Shown one piece after another: positions 29,396 through 60,694 of a stretch of 64,000 nt of DNA; position 1 is the stretch's first letter, and every line of letters starts with the position of its first letter. Position numbers and translations under genes: made by a program. Source of the stretch: Gemmatimonadota bacterium (GTDB lineage Bacteria; Gemmatimonadota; Gemmatimonadetes; Longimicrobiales; Gaopeijiaceae); the NCBI GenBank assembly GCA_022560615.1, contig JADFSR010000019.1:1-64000 (forward strand), given 5' to 3'. The notes under the pieces were generated by a model, which was not told the DNA's origin, did not search any database, and saw nothing but the letters and a program-made list of their open reading frames with translations.

Positions 29396-29423
29396 ACCCC
29401 CCCCCACGGAGATGTTCGGCTGG

Positions 29424-29581
29424 GACGGGTGGTCCAGGTCTCCTGGCTCGAGGCCGACTGCTCGCCTTCCCAGGGGTCAACCCCAGTGGCTCTGGTGAAC
29501 AGCCGTTCCGACTACGTCGGACCTCTCACAGTGGCGGGGCCGCGCCGGAATCTCACCGGCTTCCGATATGGCCCACCCGTA
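29424..29581 (-). ncRNA. Cobalamin riboswitch
   Basis: Upstream of btuB the transcript contains GGAAGCCGGTGAGATTCCGG, then CGGCCCCGCCACTGTGA and finally the B12 box AGCCAGGAGACCTG (29448-29435). These are the conserved core elements of the cobalamin riboswitch in the right order. An outer helix pairs ACGGGTGG (29580-29573) with CCACCCGT (29432-29425). B12 binding is expected to repress the receptor. Confidence 0.9.
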
Positions 29582-29657
29582 TGATCAATCGTGGGAGAAC
29601 ATATATCGATCGAGGCCTTGCGGCAAAGGGCGGCCCTGACCCCGCGCAGCCTAGACG

Positions 29658-33339: not shown

Positions 33340-33387
33340 GGCGAGAAAGCTCACCGAACCGCGCAGGGCTTTCAACGCGCCGCTAGA

Positions 33388-33870
33388 TCAGCCCCGCATG
33401 CGATCCAGGTATCGGTACTGGAGAGCCTCGGCTGCGTCGCGGCAGCGAATCTCCTCGACGCCGTCCAGGTCGGCAATCGTGCGGGCCACTTTCAAGATCC
33501 GGTGGTAGGAGCGCGCCGACAGACCCATGCGATCGACCGCGCGTTGAAGGAGGCGTGACACGGCTCGACTCGGCCGGCACCAGCGACGCAACTCCATGGG
33601 ACGCATCTGGCCGTTGGCGTGCACCGCCTCGACCCCCTCGAAGCGGGCCTCCTGGAGCCGTCGAGCCTTTGAGACGCGTTCCTTGATCTGGGCGCTGCTC
33701 GACCCCTCGCCGTCTCCCGACAGATGCTCGAACGGCACCGGCGGGATATGTAGGTGCAGGTCGATTCGGTCGATGAGCGGTCCCGAGACCCGCCCCATGT
33801 AGCGGTGAACCACCGTGGGATCGCAGAGACACCGATCGGTGCCGTCCCCCCAGAAGCCGCACGGGCACCC
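33388..33870 (-). pseudogene. comM 3'-terminal fragment (duplicate)
   Basis: 141 residues from MVHRYMGRVSGPLIDRIDLH to YLDRMRG are nearly identical to the end of intact comM at 41287-42819; only HLSG against QLAG differs in the 5' part. Similarity begins around CPCGFWGDGT at about 33865, where foreign sequence starts, and continues about 25 bases past the stop. It has no N-terminal AAA+ part and cannot function as ComM. Confidence 0.9.
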
Positions 33871-33971
33871 CTGCGTTGCCTTTTTGCCATGTCATCCTGA
33901 CAGGACAAAGACCCACGCCGCCCGGGTATCCGTCGAAGGAGCTATCCACTTCGCTCTCCTGACCCCAAGAT

Positions 33972-34535
33972 ATGGTGGTGTCAGAGAAATCGGATCACCC
34001 GGTCGGGGGCGAGGATTACCTGCGGACGCTTGTGGAAGTTGACGAGCGGTTCGCGTCGGAGGCCGCGTGCGAGGATTTTCTGCGTCGTCTTCGGTGGCCT
34101 GAAGGCTTCTACTGTCCCGGGTGCGGTGCCGCCGGGGCGTGGGAGACGAGCCGGGGGTTGTTTCGATGCTCGAGCTGTGCCCGTCAGACCTCCGTCACGG
34201 CAGGGACTCTCTTTGAGGGGCACGCGAGAACCCCTACGCCTGTGGTTCCAAGCGATGTGGTATTTCACGAACCAGAAACACGGGGTGAGTGCCCTGGGGC
34301 TGCAACGCATCCTGGGTCTGGGAAGCTACCAGACGGCCTGGGCATGGGCTCCACCGCTTAGACGACGCCTCAGCAGCCAGCCTCATCCCCTTCATCAAGA
34401 GTACGGTGAGCGAGGGGGCACTTGTCCGTACGGACGGGTGGGCCGGCTACCTTCCCCTTTCGCGTCACGGCTATCGGCATCGCCCCACGAGTCTACGCGC
34501 TACGCGCCTGCCTGCTCACGTGGTGATGCCGGGGA
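33972..34535 (+). pseudogene. IS1595-family transposase, frameshifted and internally deleted
   Basis: The zinc-ribbon N-terminus is intact in the first frame (FYCPGCGAAGAWETSRGLFR, CSSCARQTSVTAGTLFEG). The match continues in a second frame (PLRLWFQAMWYFTNQKHGVS, LGLQRILGLGSYQTAWAW). A third frame has LIPFIKSTVSEGALVRTDGW and YLPLSRHGYRHR, after loss of the central catalytic region. At least two frameshifts and a deletion make it inactive. The flanks (33871-33971) contain no gene. Confidence 0.8.
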
Positions 34536-34587
34536 TGGAGGATTCTGTCCTCAGCTCTGAGCCATGCACCAACGCTGCGTAGACCTC

Positions 34588-35112
34588 TCAGGAACTCTCA
34601 CGCTCCGTCATCACCAGAACGTTACCTGTCCATTTCTCATTAAACGCCTCGGGCGTGTATTCCAATCGTCCCACGAAGGGGTCCCGGACGTGGATACGCG
34701 CCAAATGGATCGAGTCCACCAGAACGAAGTGATCCTGCAGGTGGGCCACAAGAGGAAGTCTAGCGCCTCGAAGCCCGACGATGTTGGCCCGGAAGCCACG
34801 GATCTCCAAGCCATGGGAAGACGCGTGCTCCCGCATATCCGCGAAGGACCAGAACTCCTCAGGATTCGGATGAAGAGCCAGAATCACTTCGTAAGGGACA
34901 TGGATGCCCACCTCCGCAAGAAGCATGTGAAGGACGGCCGGTCCACAGTCGGCGTCCTGCTCCTGTAGGGTCACCCCATCGGTGCCTAGAAACTCGCCGC
35001 CCTGAATGGCGGCGACCAGCTCCTGGCTGGGGGCTCCTGCGTCACCGCAGCCCCACGCCGGCGTCATGGCGACGGTAGCTAGACCGAAGATCATGGTCCT
35101 CCACCCTGTCAT
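34588..35112 (-). CDS. Stand-alone exported C39 (bacteriocin-type) peptidase
   Basis: 174 aa. Papain-like C39 family, which cuts leader peptides after Gly-Gly. Catalytic residues visible: Gln50 and Cys56 in LQEQDADCGPAVLHM, His128 in HLQDHFVLVDSI and Asp144 in IHVRDPFVG, then KWTGNVLVM as in C39 domains of peptide exporters. Unlike those, it is not fused to an ABC transporter and has an N-terminal export signal (MIFGLATVAMTPAWGC, perhaps a poor lipobox). Its own residues ELVAAIQGG resemble a double-glycine leader. The ATG overlaps the ABC ATPase stop (ATGA) with AGGAGG upstream, so it is the last gene of the operon. Confidence 0.85.
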   Translation of the reverse strand: MTGWRTMIFGLATVAMTPAWGCGDAGAPSQELVAAIQGGEFLGTDGVTLQEQDADCGPAVLHMLLAEVGIHVPYEVILALHPNPEEFWSFADMREHASSHGLEIRGFRANIVGLRGARLPLVAHLQDHFVLVDSIHLARIHVRDPFVGRLEYTPEAFNEKWTGNVLVMTERESS

Positions 35113-35891
35113 GCTTCCTCCTGCTCGTTCACGACACTTAGGTACAGCGCCTCTAGGGCTGATCCACGTCCAGCCTCCGCACCCCGCGATCGTATTGCGT
35201 CCATGCTACCGGTCAGTTGGGCACGACCACGGTAGATCAAGACGACCTCATGACATATGCTCTCAAGAACGGACAGGATGTGGGAGGTCACGAGGATGGC
35301 CCGGCCGGCGGAGGCCAACTCTCCGAGATGCTCGCGGAGGCGGACAACGCTCATCGGGTCCAGGGATTCGAATGGTTCGTCCAGGACAATGACCTGGGGA
35401 TCGTGGATCAGGGCCGCGCTGATCGCCAGTTTCTTGCGATTGCCACTGGAATAGGTAGCGACCACGCGATCCAGGTATTCGTCCAAATTGAGCATTTGGG
35501 TGAGTTCATCAGCCCGGCCCTCCCCAGCCGACCCGAGTTGGAAGGATTCCACCAGGAAATCGAGCATTTCACGGCCCGTGAGGTATTCGAACAGCGCACC
35601 GTCAGATATCAAGAACCCCACCTGCCTGCGGATCCACCGCGTGTCCGCCGGCGTGTCGTAGCCCCGGCCCAGTAGTCTCACTACGCCTTGGGTCGGGCGA
35701 ACGAGGTCGGCAAGGACATGAACCAACGTCGATTTGCCCGCTCCGTTCGGTCCGATGACGCCTACGATGTGCCCTGGGGAGCACGTCAGGTCCAGACCGC
35801 AGAGGGCCTTGACCACACCGAAGTGTACGTCGAGCCCACTCACGCGAATCGCCTCGCCCGAAGCTGGAGGCGCCGCTCCGACATCGCTCAT
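35109..35891 (-). CDS. ABC transporter ATP-binding protein of the peptide operon
   Basis: 260 aa from ATG 35891. Single nucleotide-binding domain: Walker A GPNGAGKST, signature YSSGNRKKLAISAAL (SSGN instead of SSGGQ), Walker B VIVLDEPFESLDP, switch His in TSHIL. It is of the ABC-2/CcmA-like exporter type. Overlaps the membrane protein gene upstream and the C39 gene downstream by 4 bases each. It pairs with the membrane protein at 35888 for export or self-immunity. Confidence 0.92.
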   Translation of the reverse strand: MSDVGAAPPASGEAIRVSGLDVHFGVVKALCGLDLTCSPGHIVGVIGPNGAGKSTLVHVLADLVRPTQGVVRLLGRGYDTPADTRWIRRQVGFLISDGALFEYLTGREMLDFLVESFQLGSAGEGRADELTQMLNLDEYLDRVVATYSSGNRKKLAISAALIHDPQVIVLDEPFESLDPMSVVRLREHLGELASAGRAILVTSHILSVLESICHEVVLIYRGRAQLTGSMDAIRSRGAEAGRGSALEALYLSVVNEQEEA

Positions 35892-37351
35892 TGACCTACG
35901 ATCCGATAGGAACGGCGCTCCTCTCTCCGCACCAGCGCGTGGAGTGAGAGGAGCAGCCCGGCGGTCGTAGCAAGCGACAGGCCGCGTGCCAGGGCCCCAC
36001 GTGCCACCACTGCGGCGAAGCCGGCGTACACGCCCACCCCCAGGGACACGATCCCCCCCAAGGTGACCAACGCAGCGAGGTAGCCCCACCAGGTCAGGAC
36101 TCCTCCGTGGACGAAGAACTGCCACACATGCAGTGCCTTGGGTCGCGCCAGGCTCGTGAACCGCCCGGCAACAGCGGTCATCGAAAACGCTGCGTGGCCC
36201 ATCAGCCACCACCCGACTACGTCACCAATGTTGCCGCCGCTGGTCACAACCGTCACCAGTGCCAACGGAAGGGTGAGCATGGCCATGACGCCGTGGATGA
36301 CCGCCTCACGAAGGTGAAGAGCCGCTACAGGACCGCCTGGCAGCAGGCGGTACCGCGAGACACCCCCGAGCGGATAGTCGAAGGCAAAGATATTGAAGGC
36401 CATCTGAAGCCAGAACAGGAAGACCATGACGAGGCCGAAGGGTATGCCAACCACCGCGACGAACACAGCCCAGGCCAAAGAAGCTGCCATGGCATTGCGC
36501 AGAAGCGTGGCTCTCCACATCAGGGCAACCTCCTTACGCACTCCGGCGCCGAAGCGATTCTGCACCTCTCGGAGGAGCCACGAGTGACGAGCTTGGGGCA
36601 GCTGCGGGAAAAAGCCGTCCTCGTCCCGATGGTGGATGGCCCAGACGAGTCCCGCTGCCCCGGCCGCCACTAGCAGTAGCGCCGCTAGGCGTCCAATAGC
36701 CGAAAGGAGCCTACCTCCTGGGTCCAAGGTAGAAGCCATGGTCGTGACGCCAGGAAACTCAAGGGCCGCTTCAGGCCGCAGGACCACGGACGCCGTCAGG
36801 ATCAACCCGAGCAAAGCCGTCCAGAAACCAATCGCGGGGAAGCGCCGAACCGCAACTGCGAGCAGTGAGATAGACGCTAAGAAAACCAGCCAGCCTCCCG
36901 CCACCATGGCGGTGGTTAGGAGCGCCCGATCCACGATCCAGAGGGGAACCAGTGTGGTATGGGCCACAGTGAATACCACGGTAGTCCAGAAACATGCCAG
37001 CAGCGCGAATGGGCTCCTCAAGCCCAGCCGTAACAGCCTGAGCGATGCGCCCGCCCAAGGAAGGAGGGCCAGACGGGGGCTAGCTGAGAGAGGTTCGCGT
37101 CCCAAGACCATCGTAGCACAGGGGATGATGAGCACTGAAAGCGCGATGGACGCGTGCAGGAGGGCCCGCGCGTCCGCCGGCGCACTAGAGGCCAGGGTCA
37201 GCACATGGCGGACCGCCCGAATCGGAACGATGAGCCACACCAACCCGAGAAGTGCGGGGAAGGGGCCAGACGGCCCCCTCCTCCGCACGGATCGCCACCA
37301 CAGCACTAGGAGCGCCCAACGGCCTCCCGTGGCTTGTCCGGCGCGATCCAC
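35888..37351 (-). CDS. Polytopic membrane protein, probable ABC-2-type permease of the peptide operon
   Basis: 487 aa from a GTG start. Ten or more hydrophobic helices in two halves separated by a polar loop (HHRDEDGFFPQLPQARHSWL, VQNRFGAGVRKEVALMWR). The RKEVALMWR segment before the second half resembles ABC-2 exporter permeases. No confident family. It starts six bases after the precursor gene stop and overlaps the ATPase gene, so it is the transporter's membrane part. Confidence 0.75.
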   Translation of the reverse strand: MDRAGQATGGRWALLVLWWRSVRRRGPSGPFPALLGLVWLIVPIRAVRHVLTLASSAPADARALLHASIALSVLIIPCATMVLGREPLSASPRLALLPWAGASLRLLRLGLRSPFALLACFWTTVVFTVAHTTLVPLWIVDRALLTTAMVAGGWLVFLASISLLAVAVRRFPAIGFWTALLGLILTASVVLRPEAALEFPGVTTMASTLDPGGRLLSAIGRLAALLLVAAGAAGLVWAIHHRDEDGFFPQLPQARHSWLLREVQNRFGAGVRKEVALMWRATLLRNAMAASLAWAVFVAVVGIPFGLVMVFLFWLQMAFNIFAFDYPLGGVSRYRLLPGGPVAALHLREAVIHGVMAMLTLPLALVTVVTSGGNIGDVVGWWLMGHAAFSMTAVAGRFTSLARPKALHVWQFFVHGGVLTWWGYLAALVTLGGIVSLGVGVYAGFAAVVARGALARGLSLATTAGLLLSLHALVRREERRSYRIVGQ

Positions 37352-37356
37352 GGGAC

Positions 37357-37629
37357 TCAGCCCAGGGGCTCAGGGTCGAGGACTTCGATGCAGCCTACGC
37401 CCACGACGAACCCGACAACCGGGTTGCCGAAAAACAATCCTGCCCCGATACCAACGGCTCCACAGAAGAGCCGGCAGCCGAAGCAGTATCCACCTTCGAT
37501 ATCAGCCATCTCCGTCTCACTGAGCGGCTCGAACAAGGGCGCCTCCGAGGTCAAACCCTCGGTGGGGTCCAGGGCGCCGGAATCCACAGCGTAGGCCAAC
37601 GCGGGTGGCGCGAGGAACATGAGGCTCAA
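37357..37629 (-). CDS. Double-glycine-leader peptide precursor, bacteriocin-like
   Basis: 90 aa in the open frame (TTG 37629; ATG three codons in). Features in order: hydrophobic LMFLAPPALAYA that looks like the end of a Sec signal peptide; an acidic spacer; the leader motif LSETEMADIEGG (Gly46-Gly47), a close match to ELxxIxGG; a 43-residue core YCFGCRLFCGAVGIGAGLFF and on, with four Cys (49, 52, 56, 80) and several GxxxG-like repeats, hydrophobic and Gly-rich as in pore-forming bacteriocins. The strong AGGAGG at 37678-37673 is not near this start. The upstream bases in another frame encode RKYLSKATA, suggesting a damaged 5' end. Function inferred from motif and neighbours only. Confidence 0.65.
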   Translation of the reverse strand: MSLMFLAPPALAYAVDSGALDPTEGLTSEAPLFEPLSETEMADIEGGYCFGCRLFCGAVGIGAGLFFGNPVVGFVVGVGCIEVLDPEPLG

Positions 37630-37672
37630 TAGCGCTAGGGCGCTGTGGCCTTGGAAAGGTACTTCCTAGCAA

Positions 37673-37740
37673 CCTCCTAGGTGTGTTGGAGAGGCCGGAG
37701 GGGACGATTTGACGATATGAGGTGTCTGGGACATTTGCAA
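37673..37740 (-). promoter_or_regulatory. Candidate promoter and Shine-Dalgarno of the peptide operon
   Basis: TTGCAA (37740-37735) and TATCGT (37717-37712) are 17 bases apart, each matching consensus at four positions. AGGAGG at 37678-37673 is a perfect Shine-Dalgarno, five bases before an AGG codon that would be the expected start position. Confidence 0.35.
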
Positions 37741-38544
37741 TCGCTCGGCCTCGTTGTCCCGCTTGTTGGCTGGACTGACCCTCGCTTGCGAGGTCGCAGT
37801 GGCGAGTTCGTGTGAGCCGGGGCCCGGGAGGCCGGTCGTGACCCGCCGAACCGTGCGAACCGTCAAGCGATCGAGGCAACATTGTGACGTCGGCCTTTGG
37901 AGACGACCGTCGGGGAACCAGTAGAGCGTGAGACTTGCGAGGTCGGCCCATGCAAAGGGAGAGGCCTCCGTCGCTATGCGATAAGGTCATGACGATCAGG
38001 CTGCCGAGACGTGATCTCCTCGAGGGCGGTGCCCTGCTCCACGTGGCGACTGAACAGCTGCCTTCGGTATGGCGGTGAGTGCGTAGGCCAGGATTCGATC
38101 GGGTAGCGCAGCTGGGGCGGCGGTTGACGGTCACGTATCGGTTCGCGGAGCTCCCGCAGGTCCCAGATCGGCAGGCCCATACCTCATCCCCCTTGCTAAA
38201 GAAGCGGCCGATTCAACGATGGGGCCGGCCGATCTCCGTGGGAATAGCAGAATGGGACGCTCGACGCCTCCGCGACGAAGTCGGTGACCCCGAAGGAATG
38301 ACCGGGACCGCACGATCTGAAGGCAGCCTCTTGTTGAGCCCCTCCCCGCTTAGGGCCGCCGCAAAAACAAATCGAGAGTATGGAGTGCAACTCTAACGGG
38401 ATTGGCGTCCCTGGTCGCACGACGGTGAGCGCGTAAGAGCGCTCTCGGCAAGGGGTTTGCGCCGGCTTGTGAAGCGCCTTGTGTAGGGGCCTGGAGTGGT
38501 TAGGATTACGCATCAATAGGCATAACCCTAACAGGACTGACCCC
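37741..38544. other. Non-coding or decayed stretch of the island
   Basis: About 800 bp between the peptide operon and the ISAzo13 gene. Open frames here are either antisense or short. The best, 37974-38180 on the minus strand (68 aa, GLPIWDLRELREPIRDRQPP), shows no recognised motif. Just before the transposase ATG an inverted repeat GGTTAGGATTA/TAACCCTAAC (about 38499-38532) may be part of the element's end or an operator. Confidence 0.4.
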
Positions 38545-39294
38545 ATGGACCCGGCACCTCTGCGCCAGCTGCTTGTCGAGCGCAAGATCGCGACGATGGC
38601 GGAACTCAAGTCCGTGCTCGGAACCGAGGTCGACATGACCGTCTTCCGCAGGCTCCGCGAGCTCGACTACCATTCGAGCTACTCCCACCGCGGCAAGTAC
38701 TACACGCTGCACGAGGTCGCCGAGTTCGACGATCTCGGTTTGTGGTGCTTTCGCTCCGTGTGCTTCTCCAGGCACGGGACGCTCCTCAAGACATGCGAAG
38801 TGCTGGTGGACGGGGCCGAGGCGGGCTACGCGAGCGATGAACTCGAGCACGTGCTCCACGTCCAGGTGAAGGACCCGCTACGGAAGCTCGCCCTAGAAGG
38901 ACGGATCTCGCGCGAGAAGATCGACGGGCGCTTCGTACATTTCGCCATCGACGCATCGGAGCGAAGCAAGCAGCTTCGCGCGCGCCACGTCTGGGAGGCC
39001 GAGCCTCAGGACCTCCCCTTCGGTGCAGGCCCGCGCGTTGTGCCTGACGAGCTGAAGGCGGCCATCGTATTGTTCTTCTCGCTGCTGGATGAACGCCAGC
39101 GACGGTTGTATGCGGGCCTCGAATCGATGAAGCTCGGCCACGGCGGGGACCGACGCATCGCCGAGCTCCTGGGCCTCGACCCGGGCACCGTGGCCAGGGG
39201 ACGAACACAACTTCTCACCCAGGACGTCGATCGCGAGCGGGTACGCCGGGAGGGTGGAGGACGGCCTCCTGCGGAAAAACAACGCCGGAAGTGA
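38545..39294 (+). CDS. ISAzo13-type transposase, first reading frame (DNA-binding part)
   Basis: 249 aa from ATG 38545. The first 165 residues are a winged-helix region (LLVERKIATMAELKSVLGTE, FRRLRELDYHSSYSHRGKYY). The rest is the usual N-terminus of the ISAzo13/Rhodopirellula-type transposase (FFSLLDERQRRLYAGLESMK, GHGGDRRIAELLGLDPGTVA, REGGGRPPAEK). It ends at TGA 39292-39294, four bases into the second frame. GAA-AAA-C at 39274-39280 would allow a -1 slip joining the two. Confidence 0.75.
   Translation: MDPAPLRQLLVERKIATMAELKSVLGTEVDMTVFRRLRELDYHSSYSHRGKYYTLHEVAEFDDLGLWCFRSVCFSRHGTLLKTCEVLVDGAEAGYASDELEHVLHVQVKDPLRKLALEGRISREKIDGRFVHFAIDASERSKQLRARHVWEAEPQDLPFGAGPRVVPDELKAAIVLFFSLLDERQRRLYAGLESMKLGHGGDRRIAELLGLDPGTVARGRTQLLTQDVDRERVRREGGGRPPAEKQRRK
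39274..39280 (+). promoter_or_regulatory. Candidate -1 ribosomal frameshift site in the transposase
   Basis: In the first frame the codons are GCG GAA AAA CAA. A -1 slip on the A-run gives AAA ACA ACG CCG GAA GTG ATC, which leads straight into the second frame (KTTPEVIAAI). The stop of frame one is 12 bases further on. Confidence 0.5.
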
Positions 39295-40283
39295 TCGCCG
39301 CCATCGAGGGGTTGATGAAGCATGACGTCGCGGGCGATCCCGTCACCGGAGTGCGCTGGACCCGCCGCACGACCGAGAAGATCTCCGACGAGCTTGCGAG
39401 CCTCGGTATCTACGTTTGTACCAGGACCGTGGCCCGGATCCTCAAGGATCTCGACTACGCGCTCCGCGTCAACCACAAGCGGGTCTCTCGGGGTTCGGGC
39501 CCGGACCGCAACGAGCAGTTCGAATACATCGCCGAACAGCGCACGAGGTTTGCCGGACACGGCCTACCGATCGTGAGCATCGATGCGAAGAAGAGGGAGC
39601 TGGTCGGCAACTTCAAGAACAACGGCACGGCTTGGAGGCGCACTCCGGACCTGGTCCGCGACCATGACTTCCGCTCCGAGGCCAAAGGCATCGCCATCCC
39701 GTACGGCATCTACGACGTGTGCGCGAACCGCGGCACCGTCTTCGTGGGAACGTCTCACGACACGCCCGACTTCGCCGCCGACAACCTCGTCCGATGGTGG
39801 GAGTGGGAAGGCCGCGAACGCTACACCGGTGCTCCCAAGCTGCTCGTGCTCGCCGATGGCGGCTGTAGCAACAGTCCGCGTGTCCGCGCCTTCAAGGTCG
39901 CCCTCCAGACTCGCCTCGCCGACCCGCACCAGATCAGCGTTACCGTTTGTCACTATCCAGCGGGTGCCTCGAAGTGGAACCCCATCGACCATCGCCTCTT
40001 CAGCGAGATCAGTAAGAACTGGGCCGGACAGCTGCTCCGCAGCTACGCCGTGCATGCGGCTCTTGAGCCCGAAGCGATCGATCACGTCCGCTTCTGCACG
40101 CCCGAGGAGCTGTTTGCGCTCCTCGAAGAGTTGGAAGCAAAGAGCGCCGGTGGGGAGAAGACCGTGCGAGGCTGGCGCGTGAAGACTCGCTACCAGGCCC
40201 TCGACGAGGGCGAGAAGACCACGCGCACCCGGGCAATCGCCAAGGTGATCCTGGGAGCCATGAAGCGGCTCAAGGACGAGTGA
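39291..40283 (+). CDS. ISAzo13-type transposase, second reading frame (DDE catalytic part)
   Basis: 330 aa if started at GTG 39291, but similarity continues upstream in this frame (KTTPEVIAAIEGLM), as expected for a frameshifted fusion. Catalytic DDE landmarks: IVSIDAKKRELVGNFKN, LLVLADGGCSNSPRVRAFK and SKWNPIDHRLFSEISKNW. Length and motifs match the Rhodopirellula-type DDE domain. It may be active if the frameshift is programmed; otherwise a one-base deletion has killed it. Confidence 0.82.
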   Translation: MIAAIEGLMKHDVAGDPVTGVRWTRRTTEKISDELASLGIYVCTRTVARILKDLDYALRVNHKRVSRGSGPDRNEQFEYIAEQRTRFAGHGLPIVSIDAKKRELVGNFKNNGTAWRRTPDLVRDHDFRSEAKGIAIPYGIYDVCANRGTVFVGTSHDTPDFAADNLVRWWEWEGRERYTGAPKLLVLADGGCSNSPRVRAFKVALQTRLADPHQISVTVCHYPAGASKWNPIDHRLFSEISKNWAGQLLRSYAVHAALEPEAIDHVRFCTPEELFALLEELEAKSAGGEKTVRGWRVKTRYQALDEGEKTTRTRAIAKVILGAMKRLKDE

Positions 40284-40337
40284 CGTGACCGAACGCCGGT
40301 AGACTTCGGGGACTCGGGGGACGTCCAGACGAGACGT

Positions 40338-40365
40338 TTGACAGCCGCAGCAGCTGTGGTACGAT
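40338..40365 (+). promoter_or_regulatory. Predicted promoter of hicBA
   Basis: TTGACA (40338-40343) and TACGAT (40360-40365) with a 16-base spacer, about 115 bases upstream of hicB. HicB proteins usually repress their own promoter; no clear operator palindrome was picked out. Confidence 0.55.
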
Positions 40366-40481
40366 GGAGGGAAGGCATCCAGGCTGGAGTACAGGGCGCA
40401 ACAAACGCCCCGCGCCCCACCCGGACCTCCACGCTCATGGACGAGGTAAGAATTAGTCACAATCCGCTCGGAGGTCGTCGA

Positions 40482-40733
40482 ATGCGGTCCTACACCTTCC
40501 GAATTGAGATCGAGAAGGACTCCTTCCCTGGAGGGGAGCCCGGTTTCTTCGTGCGCGTGCCAGCCCTGGAGCACCTGGGAGCGGCAACCCAGGGGCGGAC
40601 GCGTGAAGAAGCCATGAGCCACATCCATGAGGTCCTCCAAATGATCGTGGAAGACCTCGTCGAAGAGGGTCAGCCCATCCCAGCCGAAGCGGCGACGGTT
40701 TCGGATGAGCCCCTCGTCACTGTCACTCTGTGA
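40482..40733 (+). CDS. hicB: HicB-family antitoxin
   Basis: 83 aa from ATG 40482, with CGGAGG seven bases upstream; the longer open frame is not supported. HicB partial RNase-H fold: SYTFRIEIEKDSFPGGEPGF, FVRVPALEHLGAATQG, TREEAMSHIHEVLQMIVEDL and a C-terminal VTVTL strand. It neutralises HicA. It lies upstream of hicA, the reverse of the commonest order, and overlaps it by GTGA. Confidence 0.85.
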   Translation: MRSYTFRIEIEKDSFPGGEPGFFVRVPALEHLGAATQGRTREEAMSHIHEVLQMIVEDLVEEGQPIPAEAATVSDEPLVTVTL

Positions 40734-40984
40734 ATCCGGTCGACTACTCCCTTCTCCGCTCCCTCACCGCCCGCCGACTCGAAAAAGCTTTGACCCGTGA
40801 AGGCTTTCCCATCGCCCGTCAGCGGGGCAGTCACCGCCGTTATAGTCACTCCGACGGCCGTCGCGTGACGGTACCCTTCTCGTCCGCGGGCGAGACGTTC
40901 CTTCCTAAGACCCCTCAGAGCATCATCGAGCGACAAGGTCACTGGACCGAAGCCGACCTCCAGCGGCTCGGCCTGCTCAAGTAG
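40730..40984 (+). CDS. hicA: HicA-family toxin (mRNA interferase)
   Basis: 84 aa from GTG 40730. Small dsRBD-like toxin: LEKALTREGFPIARQRGSHR with the catalytic His in GSHRRYSH, then DGRRVTVPFSSAGETFLPKT. It is longer than many HicA (about 60 aa) through its tail IIERQGHWTEADLQRLGLLK. A strong terminator follows directly. Probably an island-stabilising toxin-antitoxin pair with hicB. Confidence 0.85.
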   Translation: MNPVDYSLLRSLTARRLEKALTREGFPIARQRGSHRRYSHSDGRRVTVPFSSAGETFLPKTPQSIIERQGHWTEADLQRLGLLK

Positions 40985-40991
40985 GAGTCAG

Positions 40992-41021
40992 GCCCACGCA
41001 TCTGCGTGGGCTTCGTTTTTT
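40992..41021 (+). terminator. Intrinsic terminator of hicBA
   Basis: GCCCACGCA and TGCGTGGGC form a 9-bp perfect stem with a 2-base loop (40992-41011), followed shortly by a run of T (41016-41021), 8 bases after the hicA stop. Confidence 0.9.
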
Positions 41022-41240
41022 CTCTGCTTGACCGCGGGGCATCGCGCCCGAATCCTTCCGCAACGTGCAACCTGATCTCCCTCCAAGAAGCCATCGACAC
41101 CAGTTCCCCGGCCAGCCGGCTTTTCTCCACGATGACCGCCGCCATGGCCCAGTGGGAACGGGGGGAGATCGCCGACCGGTCGCCGCTTCGGTCGTCATGC
41201 GGGCCAAGCTGGGCAAGTCCCTGGGGGGCGCCGCACCCTT
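41022..41240 (+). pseudogene. Serine site-specific recombinase fragment
   Basis: One frame gives CNLISLQEAIDTSSPASRLF, then STMTAAMAQWERGEIADR, the diagnostic core of resolvase/invertase catalytic domains after the active-site Ser. The match shifts frame to AASVVMRAKLGKSLGGAAPF and then stops at the comM repeat. The active-site Ser region and the C-terminal DNA-binding part are missing. It is plausibly the relic of the integrase that brought the island. Confidence 0.75.
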
Positions 41241-41286
41241 CATAGCGCGGAGGGCTTTCAACGCGCCCGATCAACACGTCGCCCGA

Positions 41287-42819
41287 TCAGCCCCGCATGC
41301 GATCCAGGTATCGGTACTGGAGGGCCTCGGCTGCGTCGCGGCAGCGAATCTCCTCGACGCCGTCCAGGTCGGCAATCGTGCGGGCCACTTTCAAGATCCG
41401 GTGGTAGGAGCGCGCCGACAGACCCATGCGATCGACCGCGCGTTGAAGGAGGCGTGACACAGCTCGACTTGGCCGGCACCACCGACGCAACTCCATGGGA
41501 CGCATCTGGCCGTTGGCGTGCACCGCCTCGACCCCCTCGAAGCGGGCCTCCTGGAGCCGTCGAGCCTTTGAGACGCGTTCCTTGATCTGGGCGCTGCTCG
41601 ACCCCTCGCCGTCTCCCGCCAGCTGCTCGAACGGCACCGGCGGGATGTGTAGGTGCAGGTCGATTCGGTCGATGAGCGGTCCTGAAACCCGCCCCATGTA
41701 GCGGTGAACCACTGTGGGATCGCAGAGACACCGATCGGTGCCGTCCCCCCAGAAGCCACAGGGACAGGGGTTCATAGCCGCCACGAGCAGGATCCTGGCG
41801 GGGAAGCAGACGGCCGATCCGGCCCGCGACAGATGGATGACTCCGGCTTCCAACGGTTGGCGGAGTACGTCCAAGACGTTTCGGCGGAACTCGGCCAACT
41901 CGTCGAGGAAGAGGACGCCGTTGTGCGCCAGGCTGACCTCCCCAGGCCGGATCGGAGACCCACCGCCGACGAGCCCGGCGTCGCTGACCGTGTGATGGGG
42001 GGCCCGGAAAGGGCGCCGAGACACCAGCGGCGCCCCCCTCCCCAGCGTGCCCGCGACCGAGTGAACGCGAGTGCACTCGATTGCCTCGTCCAGAGTGAGC
42101 GGCGGTAGGATCCCCGCAAGCCTGCGCGCCAGCATCGTCTTGCCCGACCCGGGTGGCCCCAGGAAGAGCACATTGTGTGAGCCCGCGGCGGCGATTTCCA
42201 GCACTCGCTTCGCCACCGCTTGGCCTCGTACGTCACGCATGTCAAGGCCGTCCGAAACGCTCTCCTGCAACAGCCCGCGGAGATCGAGGGCGCCCTTCTC
42301 GAGCGACCGTCCCCCGCTGAAGTGCGTGATGACGTCACACAGGGTCGCCGCGCTGAGAACGGTCAGACCGGGGACGACACTCGCCTCTCCGGCGTTCGCA
42401 GACGGCACCACCAGGGTGCGGATGCCCGCCGCAGCACACTCCGCCGCGATCGGCAGTGCGCCGCGAATGGGTCGAAGCGAGCCGTCGAGCCCCAGCTCTC
42501 CCAGGAAGGCGCACTCGCCGAGGCGACCGTCATCCAGGTGCCCGCCGGCCGCGAGCAAGCCCACCGCGATCGGCAGGTCGAAGGCCGTTCCTTCCTTGCG
42601 CACGTCCCCGGGGGCGAGATTCACTGTGATGCGCCGGGGCGGCAGGGGGAAGCCCGAGTTCCGCAGTGCCGCCGCGACCCTATCGCGGCTTTCGCGCACC
42701 GCACCGTGCGGCAACCCGACGACGGTGAAGGCCGGAAGCCCAGAACTCAGGTTCACCTCGACCTGCACGAGAAACGACTCTACGCCTCGCAAGGCCGCGG
42801 TGTGAACATGAGCGAGCAT
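41287..42819 (-). CDS. comM: ComM/YifB family Mg-chelatase-like AAA+ ATPase
   Basis: 510 aa, complete. N-terminal Lon-protease-like fold (TVVGLPHGAVRESRDRVAAAL), Walker A FLGPPGSGKTMLARRLAGIL, Walker B VLFLDELAEF, zinc/Cys-containing loop AAMNPCPCGFWGD, and Mg-chelatase C-terminus (SARSYHRILKVARTIADL). In naturally competent bacteria ComM is a hexameric helicase assisting branch migration during transformation. Its 3' third is duplicated at 33388-33870. It diverges from the transhydrogenase genes. Confidence 0.94.
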   Translation of the reverse strand: MLAHVHTAALRGVESFLVQVEVNLSSGLPAFTVVGLPHGAVRESRDRVAAALRNSGFPLPPRRITVNLAPGDVRKEGTAFDLPIAVGLLAAGGHLDDGRLGECAFLGELGLDGSLRPIRGALPIAAECAAAGIRTLVVPSANAGEASVVPGLTVLSAATLCDVITHFSGGRSLEKGALDLRGLLQESVSDGLDMRDVRGQAVAKRVLEIAAAGSHNVLFLGPPGSGKTMLARRLAGILPPLTLDEAIECTRVHSVAGTLGRGAPLVSRRPFRAPHHTVSDAGLVGGGSPIRPGEVSLAHNGVLFLDELAEFRRNVLDVLRQPLEAGVIHLSRAGSAVCFPARILLVAAMNPCPCGFWGDGTDRCLCDPTVVHRYMGRVSGPLIDRIDLHLHIPPVPFEQLAGDGEGSSSAQIKERVSKARRLQEARFEGVEAVHANGQMRPMELRRWCRPSRAVSRLLQRAVDRMGLSARSYHRILKVARTIADLDGVEEIRCRDAAEALQYRYLDRMRG

Positions 42820-47274: not shown

Positions 47275-47657
47275 GAAGGGTGATCGGAAAGGGGAGCGGG
47301 CCGCCACCCGTGCTGTCGCACGGGTCCCCGAGTGCCACGGCCTCAGAGGGCACCCGCGCATTGCGCGGGTCGCGGGGCGACGACGCCATAGCCGTCGCTA
47401 CGGCTAGGAGCTCCAACGACGGAGATGGGGCCGTGCCACCGCAACCCACACACTCATGTGTCCTTTCATCCCGGTGCTGGGCACATGACGGTTGCGCGGT
47501 TGATCCATCGTCTCTCCTCGTCGGACCACCGCCTTCGGCGGCGGTGCCCGCTCGGCTACGACTCCTCGTCGTTCCTTGCCTGAACGCGCGCAAGCGCGGG
47601 GCACCCACGCCGCATGGCGTGGGTCGCGCGGCCCACCCCCCTTTCCGATCACCCTTC
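47275..47657. mobile_element. Hairpin-rich terminal-inverted-repeat element, copy 1
   Basis: Ends GAAGGGTGATCGGAAAGGGG and its complement frame 383 bp without a gene. It is the reverse-oriented relative of 59543-59966: the first 190 bp (from its right end) are nearly identical. It contains at least four short hairpins with arms of the form GACCC…GGGTGCCC or GGGCACC…GGTGGTCC. The right flank is TA; the left flank is TG, perhaps a mutated TA duplication. Confidence 0.75.
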
Positions 47658-48319
47658 TAATGCGCCTTCGTGCTCTCCCGCCCGGTCGTCACGAGCACGC
47701 TCACCGTCGATTCGAACTCGGCCCGAATCACGCCGAGCTGCTGCCGGACCTCTTCCGCCAAGGTCGCCGGCAGCACGGGGTCCCGGGGTTCACCCTTATC
47801 GAAGAGCTGGAAGAAGAGCGCGTCCGTGTGGCCAACGCTGCCGTGCGTGACCGCCCTATCGATGGCGCGGTTGAGATGAAGGATTTCTCGTAGAGAGAGC
47901 GGCACCTGACCCCCCATCGGGGGATCGCGATACAGCTCACGAATCACCAACTCGCGCAGCACCTGCAGCTCCTCGATGACTTCCCCGGCGGCCAGACCCC
48001 TTTGGGCTGCGGTCGCACCGAAGAGCTCCGCGCAACGATCCCAGATCGGCCTTACTTCCCTCCTCAGCGGCCCTAACAGCGATGGGAGAATCGCCACCAG
48101 CAATGACATGAACTCGTCCATGATCGGGTCCCAAGGCTCGCTGCGCCCCACGCCGTTCTCATGGATTCGCCTCGCCCACTGCTCGCGAATAGCTGGCAGC
48201 CTCTGCTGGAGCCACTCGGCGAGCTCGAGGGGCGCCACACGGCGGCGCCCCGGGCCAGCGATCCGCGTGGCGGAGCTGGGCCCCTTTGCTCTGTCTCGAT
48301 CTGTGGAGTAGTTCTGCAT
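47657..48319 (-). CDS. RsbRD N-terminal-like sensor domain protein
   Basis: 220 aa, all-helical and soluble. The pattern LPAIREQWARRIHENG, GLAAGEVIEELQVLRELVIR and ILHLNRAIDRAVTHGSVGHT resembles the RsbT co-antagonist RsbRD N-terminal domain that often precedes kinase or STAS modules, but no second domain is present. A ligand- or partner-sensing role is inferred. The stop TAG is built from the TA at the element boundary, so the last codons before it may have been native. Confidence 0.5.
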   Translation of the reverse strand: MQNYSTDRDRAKGPSSATRIAGPGRRRVAPLELAEWLQQRLPAIREQWARRIHENGVGRSEPWDPIMDEFMSLLVAILPSLLGPLRREVRPIWDRCAELFGATAAQRGLAAGEVIEELQVLRELVIRELYRDPPMGGQVPLSLREILHLNRAIDRAVTHGSVGHTDALFFQLFDKGEPRDPVLPATLAEEVRQQLGVIRAEFESTVSVLVTTGRESTKAH

Positions 48320-59534: not shown

Positions 59535-59542
59535 GCCTTCTA

Positions 59543-59966
59543 GAAGGGTGATCGGAAAGGGGGGTGGGCCGCGCGACCCACGCCATGCGGCGTGGGTGCC
59601 CCGCGCTCGCGCGCGTTCAGGCAAGGAACGACGAGGAGTCGTAGCCGAGCGGGCACCGCCGCCGAAGGCGGTGGTCCGACGAGGAGAGACGATGGATCAA
59701 CCGCGCGGGCACCGACCAAAGGTTGGTCGCCCTGTGCCCAGCACCGGGTTGAAATGAACAGACGAGTGTGTGGGTTGCGGTGGCACGGCCCCGTCTCCGT
59801 CGTTGGAGCTTCTCGGACCACCGCCTTCGGCGGCGGTGCCCGCGACGGCTATGCCTTCGAAGCTCCGCGACCCACGCGATGCGCGGGTGCCCTCTGGGGC
59901 CGTGGCATCCCGGGGACCCGTGCGTTAGCACGGGTGGCGGCCCGCCCCCCTTTCCGATCACCCTTC
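59543..59966. mobile_element. Hairpin-rich terminal-inverted-repeat element, copy 2
   Basis: 424 bp, ends GAAGGGTGATCGGAAAGGGG and complement, with TA at both flanks. Relative to copy 1 (47275-47657, opposite orientation) it has two extra hairpin modules, GGGCACCGACC/GGTTGGTCGCCC and GGACCACCGCC/GGCGGCGGTGCCC, while the backbone between them is conserved. Open frames inside it are not shared in a coding-like way. Confidence 0.8.
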
Positions 59967-59968
59967 TA

Positions 59969-60694
59969 ATGGACAGGGGGCTTGACCTTCTGGTCATCAT
60001 GGCCCACCCCGACGATGCGGAACTCCTCTGCGGGGGCGCGCTCATCAAAAGCGCCGCCGCCGGAAAGCGAGTCGGCGTTCTCGACCTCACGGCCGGCGAG
60101 ATGGGCAGCTCCGGATCGATTGAGCAGCGCGCTGCGGAGGCCGCTCGAGCGGCGGATATCATGGGCCTCGCTGAACGATGGAACGCGGGACTTCCCGATG
60201 CGGCGCTCGAGAACGACAACGAGTCCCGCCACATCGTCGTGGAGCATCTCAGGGCACTCCGGCCGAGGGTCGTCGTCACGCACTGGAAGGTCGGCCTCCA
60301 CCGGGACCACCGGATCGCGAGCGAGCTCGTGCGAGATGCTTGCTTCTTGAGCGCGCTCAAGAAGCTCGACGTGACGGGTGAGCCGTTACGTCCCACGAAG
60401 CTCATCCACGCGACCGCGTTCCGCGAAGACGCCGTCCCCCCCGACTTCGTCGTTGACATCAGCGAACACATCGATGCGAAGCTCGAGGCGATCAACGCCT
60501 ACGAGTCTCAGTTCGAAGGTGTCAGCCAGGCCGGGGAAGCTTTCCCTGGCGGTGACCGACCGCTCATCGATCAGATCCGTGCCCAACTCGCGCACTACGG
60601 GTCGCTGATTCGGGTCCCGTACGGTGAGCCCTTCCGTGTCGACGAGGCGCTCGAGGTCGGCGACCTCGCCGAGCTAGGGGTGTCGACCTTCTGA
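59969..60694 (+). CDS. bshB1: Bacillithiol biosynthesis deacetylase BshB1 (LmbE/PIG-L family)
   Basis: 241 aa from ATG 59969. Zinc motif AHPDDAELLCGGALIK, catalytic region GLPDAALENDNESRHIVVEH, metal HRDH in VGLHRDHRIASELVRDACF, then FVVDISEHIDAKLEAINAYE. It deacetylates GlcNAc-malate in bacillithiol synthesis. bshA and bshC are not in the window. The start codon is two bases after the inverted-repeat end of the neighbouring element, so expression must come from within or through it. Confidence 0.85.
   Translation: MDRGLDLLVIMAHPDDAELLCGGALIKSAAAGKRVGVLDLTAGEMGSSGSIEQRAAEAARAADIMGLAERWNAGLPDAALENDNESRHIVVEHLRALRPRVVVTHWKVGLHRDHRIASELVRDACFLSALKKLDVTGEPLRPTKLIHATAFREDAVPPDFVVDISEHIDAKLEAINAYESQFEGVSQAGEAFPGGDRPLIDQIRAQLAHYGSLIRVPYGEPFRVDEALEVGDLAELGVSTF

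Follow-up and report, generated by a model that had tools for sequence, protein, structure and literature searches.

Separate, predicted exported C39 peptidases encoded beside candidate double-glycine peptide precursors in Gemmatimonadota

The window analyzed here is a 64,000-nt stretch, positions 1 to 64,000 of contig JADFSR010000019.1, from the Gemmatimonadota bacterium GCA_022560615.1, whose 4.5-Mb genome is 99% complete. Within it, a tight operon on the minus strand is transcribed in the order precursor peptide, 487-aa membrane protein, ABC ATPase, and C39 peptidase, and all four reading frames are open. The precursor and membrane protein genes are separated by a gap of 5 nt, and short overlaps join the membrane protein gene to the ABC ATPase gene (ATG at 35891, end at 35109) and the latter to the C39 gene. 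This layout agrees, in its coordinates, gap, and overlaps, with an earlier note that had claimed four overlapping or nearly touching genes for a double-glycine (GG) peptide, a membrane protein, an ABC ATPase, and a C39 peptidase. The features of the operon and its surroundings are as follows.

37357-37629, minus strand: precursor peptide of 90 aa with a TTG start and a 43-aa core (ORF; weak Bacteriocin_IIc, TIGR01847, and TIGR04149 matches; Sec-GG precursor profile)
37673-37678, minus strand: AGGAGG, ribosome-binding-like (sequence and translation)
35888-37351, minus strand: polytopic membrane protein of 487 aa with a GTG start, partner of the ABC ATPase (homologs adjoin an ABC ATPase in genomes G223 and G423)
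35109-35891, minus strand: ABC ATPase, DrrA-like and also lantibiotic-protection-like, separate from C39 (PF00005, drrA, galliderm_ABC)
34588-35112, minus strand: stand-alone C39 peptidase of 174 aa with a signal-like N terminus and residues Q50, C56, H128, and D144 (PF03412, invariant residues, AF2 model)
33868-41270, no strand: 7.4-kb insertion carrying the operon (flanks adjacent in the same-genus genome G117)
33372-33867, minus strand: left direct repeat, a duplicated comM 3' end, 96.6% identical to 41271-41766
41271-41766, minus strand: right direct repeat, the 3' end of intact comM (41287-42819)
33972-34582, plus strand: broken IS1595-type transposase beside the C39 gene (Zn_ribbon_IS1595)

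Here and below, G numbers denote the phylum genomes compared, and L028 and L082 are contig labels. Among the four operon genes, no adaptor, TolC-like protein, or tailoring enzyme was found, and no MacAB-TolC genes adjoin them; a YknW-like protein is likewise absent from the operon, and no amyloid genes were seen among its genes, which are of other kinds. A RiPP with tailoring enzymes was considered and rejected, since no modification enzyme is encoded there.

Known C39 leader peptidases are mostly domains of ABC exporters, located in the cytoplasm. The window C39 is encoded by an ORF separate from that of the ABC ATPase and is not the N-terminal domain of an ABC exporter. It matches PF03412 with 81.8 bits (E = 5e-23; cutoff, 22), and its catalytic residues Q50, C56, H128, and D144 are intact and invariant across 24 sequences. 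The AF2 model (pLDDT 85.7) has a papain-like C39 fold, and its best Foldseek matches are leader-cutting domains, those of PCAT1 and the LahT C39-leader complex. The N terminus (MTGWRTMIFGLATVAMTPAWGC) is signal-like, with one charged residue in the n-region and a home-made signal score of 3.3, clear signals scoring about 4.5 to 5.6. The separate C39 protein with its own export signal proposed earlier is thus confirmed, with a weak signal score. A PF03412 search detected no second C39 in the window genome; the stand-alone protein is the only one, and therefore no cytoplasmic C39 exporter that would cut a GG leader was found in this genome.

The precursor carries a canonical GG leader ending in LSETEMADIEGG, with L at -12, M at -7, and I at -4, followed by a 43-residue Cys/Gly-rich core that starts with YCFGC (core codons, 37360 to 37488). 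Hydrophobic residues at -4, -7, and -12 are found in the canonical GG leader of AMS/PCAT systems (PMC10885120). Bacteriocin_IIc (E = 0.035, below the curated cutoff) and TIGR01847 (13.4 bits; cutoff, 15.7) match at the right place, TIGR04149 matches weakly and below its cutoff, and the Sec-GG precursor profile (A5), which was built partly from this same precursor, recovers it. The only in-frame starts are TTG at 37629 and ATG at 37620, and an in-frame stop (37666-37668) separates the AGGAGG from both. The N terminus, MSLMFLAPPALAYA, is hydrophobic over part of its length and offers a plausible cut site, but its n-region lacks positive charge, and it failed a simple home-made signal-peptide test. 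A clear signal behind the signal-peptide-like N terminus noted earlier for this precursor, with its TTG start, is thus not supported. Because of the TTG start and the weak signal without a charged n-region, the window copy of the operon may, judging from its sequence, be damaged at the precursor 5' end, or a poor start may be used. The precursor was sought in G388 to settle the start, with no match; the G388 contig ends before the precursor position.

To survey the phylum, a profile of eight stand-alone C39s was run over 395 genomes. The outcome was bimodal: stand-alone C39s are present in 25 of the 395 genomes, cleanly apart from about 90 ABC-fused matches, and homologs of the C39 protein are therefore not always ABC fusions. 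The stand-alone ORFs are mostly 190 to 330 aa long (among them a fragment and one truncated at the end of its contig), the ABC-fused matches mostly exceed 600 aa, and a few weak matches with lengths in between were left unassigned. The stand-alone C39 was the only match at an E value of 1e-6 in 16 of the 25 genomes, with the best few candidates scored per genome. Two more stand-alone C39s, in G300 and G428, came from other searches. In the C39 tree, the stand-alone proteins form two supported clades, namely, clade I, with 21 rows, i.e., loci (support, 98/99), and clade II, which consists of the window, G388, G250, G223, and G428 (support, 99/95). About ten other stand-alone C39s fail a simple home-made rule for cleavable signals; several of the proteins that fail it begin with an Arg-rich segment and contain a long run of hydrophobic residues, a pattern compatible with a membrane anchor. 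A genome-wide scan with the single window C39 sequence found only the near-identical G388 contig. Plasmid searches returned weak C39 matches only; two of the three inspected are ABC fused, and the third is an isolated C39 ORF on a small Escherichia coli plasmid. A literature search found no report on exported C39s or such peptides in Gemmatimonadota.

In three genomes of clade II, to which the window belongs (G250, G428, and G223), the C39 genes adjoin precursors with both a Sec signal and a GG-type leader, as well as TolC genes. The order in G428 is exported C39, precursor, OEP outer membrane factor, HlyD/MacA-type protein, and two MacB_PCD/FtsX proteins; beside these pump genes, no MacB-type ATPase was seen. 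Its precursor has a clear signal, MIKKVTLSYMLAVTVAQGVLPVVPAFA, a leader ending in LSRDEMEKVEGG, and an amphipathic core. In G250, the C39 gene is followed by a GTG-started Sec precursor with LSVAQMSDVQGD, an OEP gene, and two genes whose translations were recognized by eye as a MacA-type protein and as a MacB-type ATPase; MacA/MacB-type genes are thus found in two of the three genomes (G250 and G428). In G223, two Sec-GG precursors precede the C39 gene, and a TolC-like gene, recognized by eye, begins after it, where the contig ends. The export signal of the C39 protein is clear in G250 and G223 by the home-made score and in G428 by eye. A profile built from the window and G223 precursors recovered those of G250 and G428 beside their C39 genes. 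All five clade II leaders are hydrophobic at -12, -7, and -4 and have Gly at -2; four end in GG and one in GD, so that homologs of the small ORF keep the motif. The same four-gene order was found only in the window; the prediction of the earlier note is therefore borne out for exported C39s accompanied by GG-type precursors and not for the operon as a unit.

The clade I operons contain the C39 gene, up to six small ORFs, and genes for a thioredoxin-like protein, a YknW-like membrane protein, an ABC ATPase, and an ABC-2-like permease. A BLAST screen of 18 loci detected all four accessory genes at 13 or more of them. The membrane protein matches YknW weakly (20.1 bits; cutoff, 110), and the best NCBIfam match of the ABC ATPase is the PSM exporter PmtA, below cutoff. 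The precursors, up to six per operon, have a Sec signal, a V-x-G-x-G/Q site, and four cysteines. Enrichment of the site was assessed with all signal-bearing small ORFs between the C39 gene and the thioredoxin-like gene, chosen without reference to the motif; at loci where the thioredoxin-like gene was not found, ORFs within 3 kb were taken. A V/I/L-x-G-x-G/Q site located 32 to 64 residues before the C terminus occurs in 38 of 44 operon ORFs and in 2 of 45 signal-bearing ORFs from outside (Fisher P = 2e-16, with few controls, nonindependent related operons, and a home-made signal rule). Under the same signal rule and with equally few controls, a CxxC...C-x2-4-C core is found in 38/44 and 0/45, respectively. 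Five clade I precursors compared against Pfam and NCBIfam matched no peptide family, and the two G223 precursors had no Pfam match; thus, seven peptides were examined without a Pfam peptide family, five of them also without an NCBIfam match. Two more secreted, Cys-rich small ORFs, with the signal MKTKYAKKFSR... and lacking the G-x-G site, lie in the clade I operon of G070 (L028, 6533-7166, minus strand).

The window ABC pair is a third type, differing from the transport genes of both its clade II relatives and clade I. The ATPase matches PF00005 with 93.2 bits and, in NCBIfam, drrA (161.8 bits) and galliderm_ABC (120.5 bits), both below cutoff. For the 487-aa membrane protein, no Pfam family was found, its AF2 model was discarded (pLDDT 42), and a search of the order's 154 genomes detected relatives beside an ABC ATPase in just two, G223 and G423; a match in G275 was dropped as a MacB-type locus. 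We consider immunity or extrusion a more probable function of the pair than cleavage of the leader. Export and immunity both fit, and the specific role in outer export or immunity assigned to it previously is not supported as stated.

Localization, cleavage, export route, and antimicrobial role of the predicted peptide system we infer as follows. The small window operon probably specifies a bacteriocin-like peptide, the GG leader of which is removed outside the cytoplasm. Sec would take the precursor across the inner membrane, the exported C39 peptidase would cut after GG in the periplasm, and the mature Cys/Gly-rich peptide would then leave, the producer being protected, with the help of the dedicated ABC module. 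In the clade II relatives, the products of the TolC and MacA/MacB-type genes would carry the trimmed peptide out of the periplasm and across the outer membrane. MacB-type pumps are described as accepting their substrate in the periplasm and not moving it across the inner membrane, as for the Sec-exported STII (PMC5985334); this mode of loading, together with the exported C39s, Sec precursors, and TolC/MacA/MacB genes, points to Sec export, periplasmic trimming, and outer membrane pumping. The earlier prediction of Sec export followed by leader removal outside the cytoplasm stands in so far as exported C39s recur in the phylum beside precursors with Sec signals and GG-type sites and no ABC-fused C39 was found in the window genome; a clear signal on the window precursor is the part that is not supported.

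Compared with known systems, the window operon shares with the PCAT1/ComA/LahT systems of class II bacteriocins and microcins the C39 family, the fold, and the GG leader. The PCAT C39, however, is a cytoplasmic exporter domain, whereas that of the window is a separate exported protein, and the precursors of the window's relatives have a Sec signal ahead of the leader. The Sec-exported small peptides predicted in G250 and G428 would, like STII, be taken from the periplasm by a MacB-type pump; unlike STII with MacAB-TolC as described, a C39 and a GG leader are present, and MacAB-TolC genes do not adjoin the window operon. Clade I resembles a third system, the Sec-exported disulfide peptide SDP of Bacillus, against which the Yip1-family protein YknW and an ABC transporter (YknWXYZ) protect (PMC4887032; PMC5985334), in its YknW-like and ABC genes, as far as the weak YknW match goes. 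Its operons differ from that system in encoding a C39 peptidase and a thioredoxin-like protein and in having several precursors each.

The one exported C39 found with experimental study is FapD of the Pseudomonas Fap amyloid system, a stand-alone C39 with a Sec signal that is active in the periplasm and whose cleavage site is not established and substrate unclear (PMC5557850). The window C39 resembles it in being stand-alone with a signal-like, if weakly scoring, N terminus, and both the FapD and FilB models match it weakly. It would accordingly be conceivable that other envelope proteins are the targets of the exported C39, in the manner of FapD, and that the adjoining GG peptide is not its substrate, but this is very improbable: GG-type precursors recur beside exported C39s in both clades, and no amyloid genes were seen in the window operon, the Fap operon being one that makes amyloid. 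Membership of the window C39 in FapD itself was rejected, with 30.3 bits against a cutoff of 330. Even harder to credit is that the stand-alone C39 is a papain-like toxin rather than a leader peptidase. C39-like toxin domains have been described (PMC3482391), and the papain-like toxin domains 8ssk and 9l5u are among the lower fold matches of the model, but the best matches are leader-cutting C39 domains and the protein is conserved in operons with GG-type precursors.

Two further alternatives concern the window copy. The membrane protein/ATPase pair, rather than Sec, might export the leader-bearing precursor, the exported C39 trimming it on the far side and the hydrophobic N terminus of the precursor being part of the leader. 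The pair is encoded between the precursor and C39 genes, and the Sec signal of the window precursor is weak; given the clear Sec signals on precursors of the same C39 clade and the resemblance of the ATPase to DrrA and lantibiotic-protection ATPases, we regard this route as unlikely. We take more seriously, while still doubting it, that the window copy arrived by recent transfer and has since decayed to a remnant that yields no precursor, irrespective of how the intact systems of its relatives work. The lack of a good start codon after the ribosome-binding-like site would fit such decay, as would the position of the operon on a recent insertion where mobile genes, among them a broken transposase, also lie; against it, the four frames are open, and G388, of another genus, has the C39/ABC part at 99.4% identity with no frame break.

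On the preferred reading of Sec export and extracytoplasmic trimming, the window bacterium and at least 26 of its relatives in the phylum appear, on sequence grounds, to make Sec-exported bacteriocin-like peptides whose leader is cut by a separate exported protease. We lean slightly toward a phylum-wide pathway in which the one-machine exporter of GG peptides is split into Sec, a free periplasmic C39, and a separate ABC module, of the MacAB-TolC type in clade II and, in clade I, combining a YknW-like protein and ABC genes with a thioredoxin-like partner; such a pathway would supply the GG-type substrates lacking for exported C39s like FapD. Since the exported C39s described here come with candidate substrates and GG-type sites beside them, the specificity and location of this class are directly testable. 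The findings also suggest that this little-studied phylum encodes dozens of secreted peptides, Cys rich or amphipathic, that lack annotation.

The insertion carrying the operon lies at the 3' end of comM, 496 bp of which are duplicated as direct repeats on its two sides. The 99.4% identity of the C39/ABC part between the window genome and G388, compared with only 66% for comM, indicates that this part of the operon was acquired recently by horizontal transfer. In G388, the IS1595-type transposase is intact (a 261-aa ORF; L082, 1287-2072), and the contig ends inside the ABC gene: the first approximately 120 bp (L082, 1-121) are unlike the window and are joined at the start of the Walker A region, possibly as an assembly chimera. 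No recognizable integrase was found in the region of the insertion and its repeats (33372-41766), which also holds an ISAzo13-type transposase and a HicBA pair. A 496-bp repeat is long for a site-specific element, and integration may have occurred by homologous recombination. Elsewhere in the window, an element of about 380 bp is present in two inverted copies that are 84.5% identical (47280-47660 and 59541-59971), its terminal inverted repeats being around AAGGGTGATCGGAAAGGGG; G117 lacks the first copy at the same place, and the element looks like a small nonautonomous mobile element. The only Rfam match within the window is a cobalamin riboswitch (29416-29616, minus strand; 75.4 bits).
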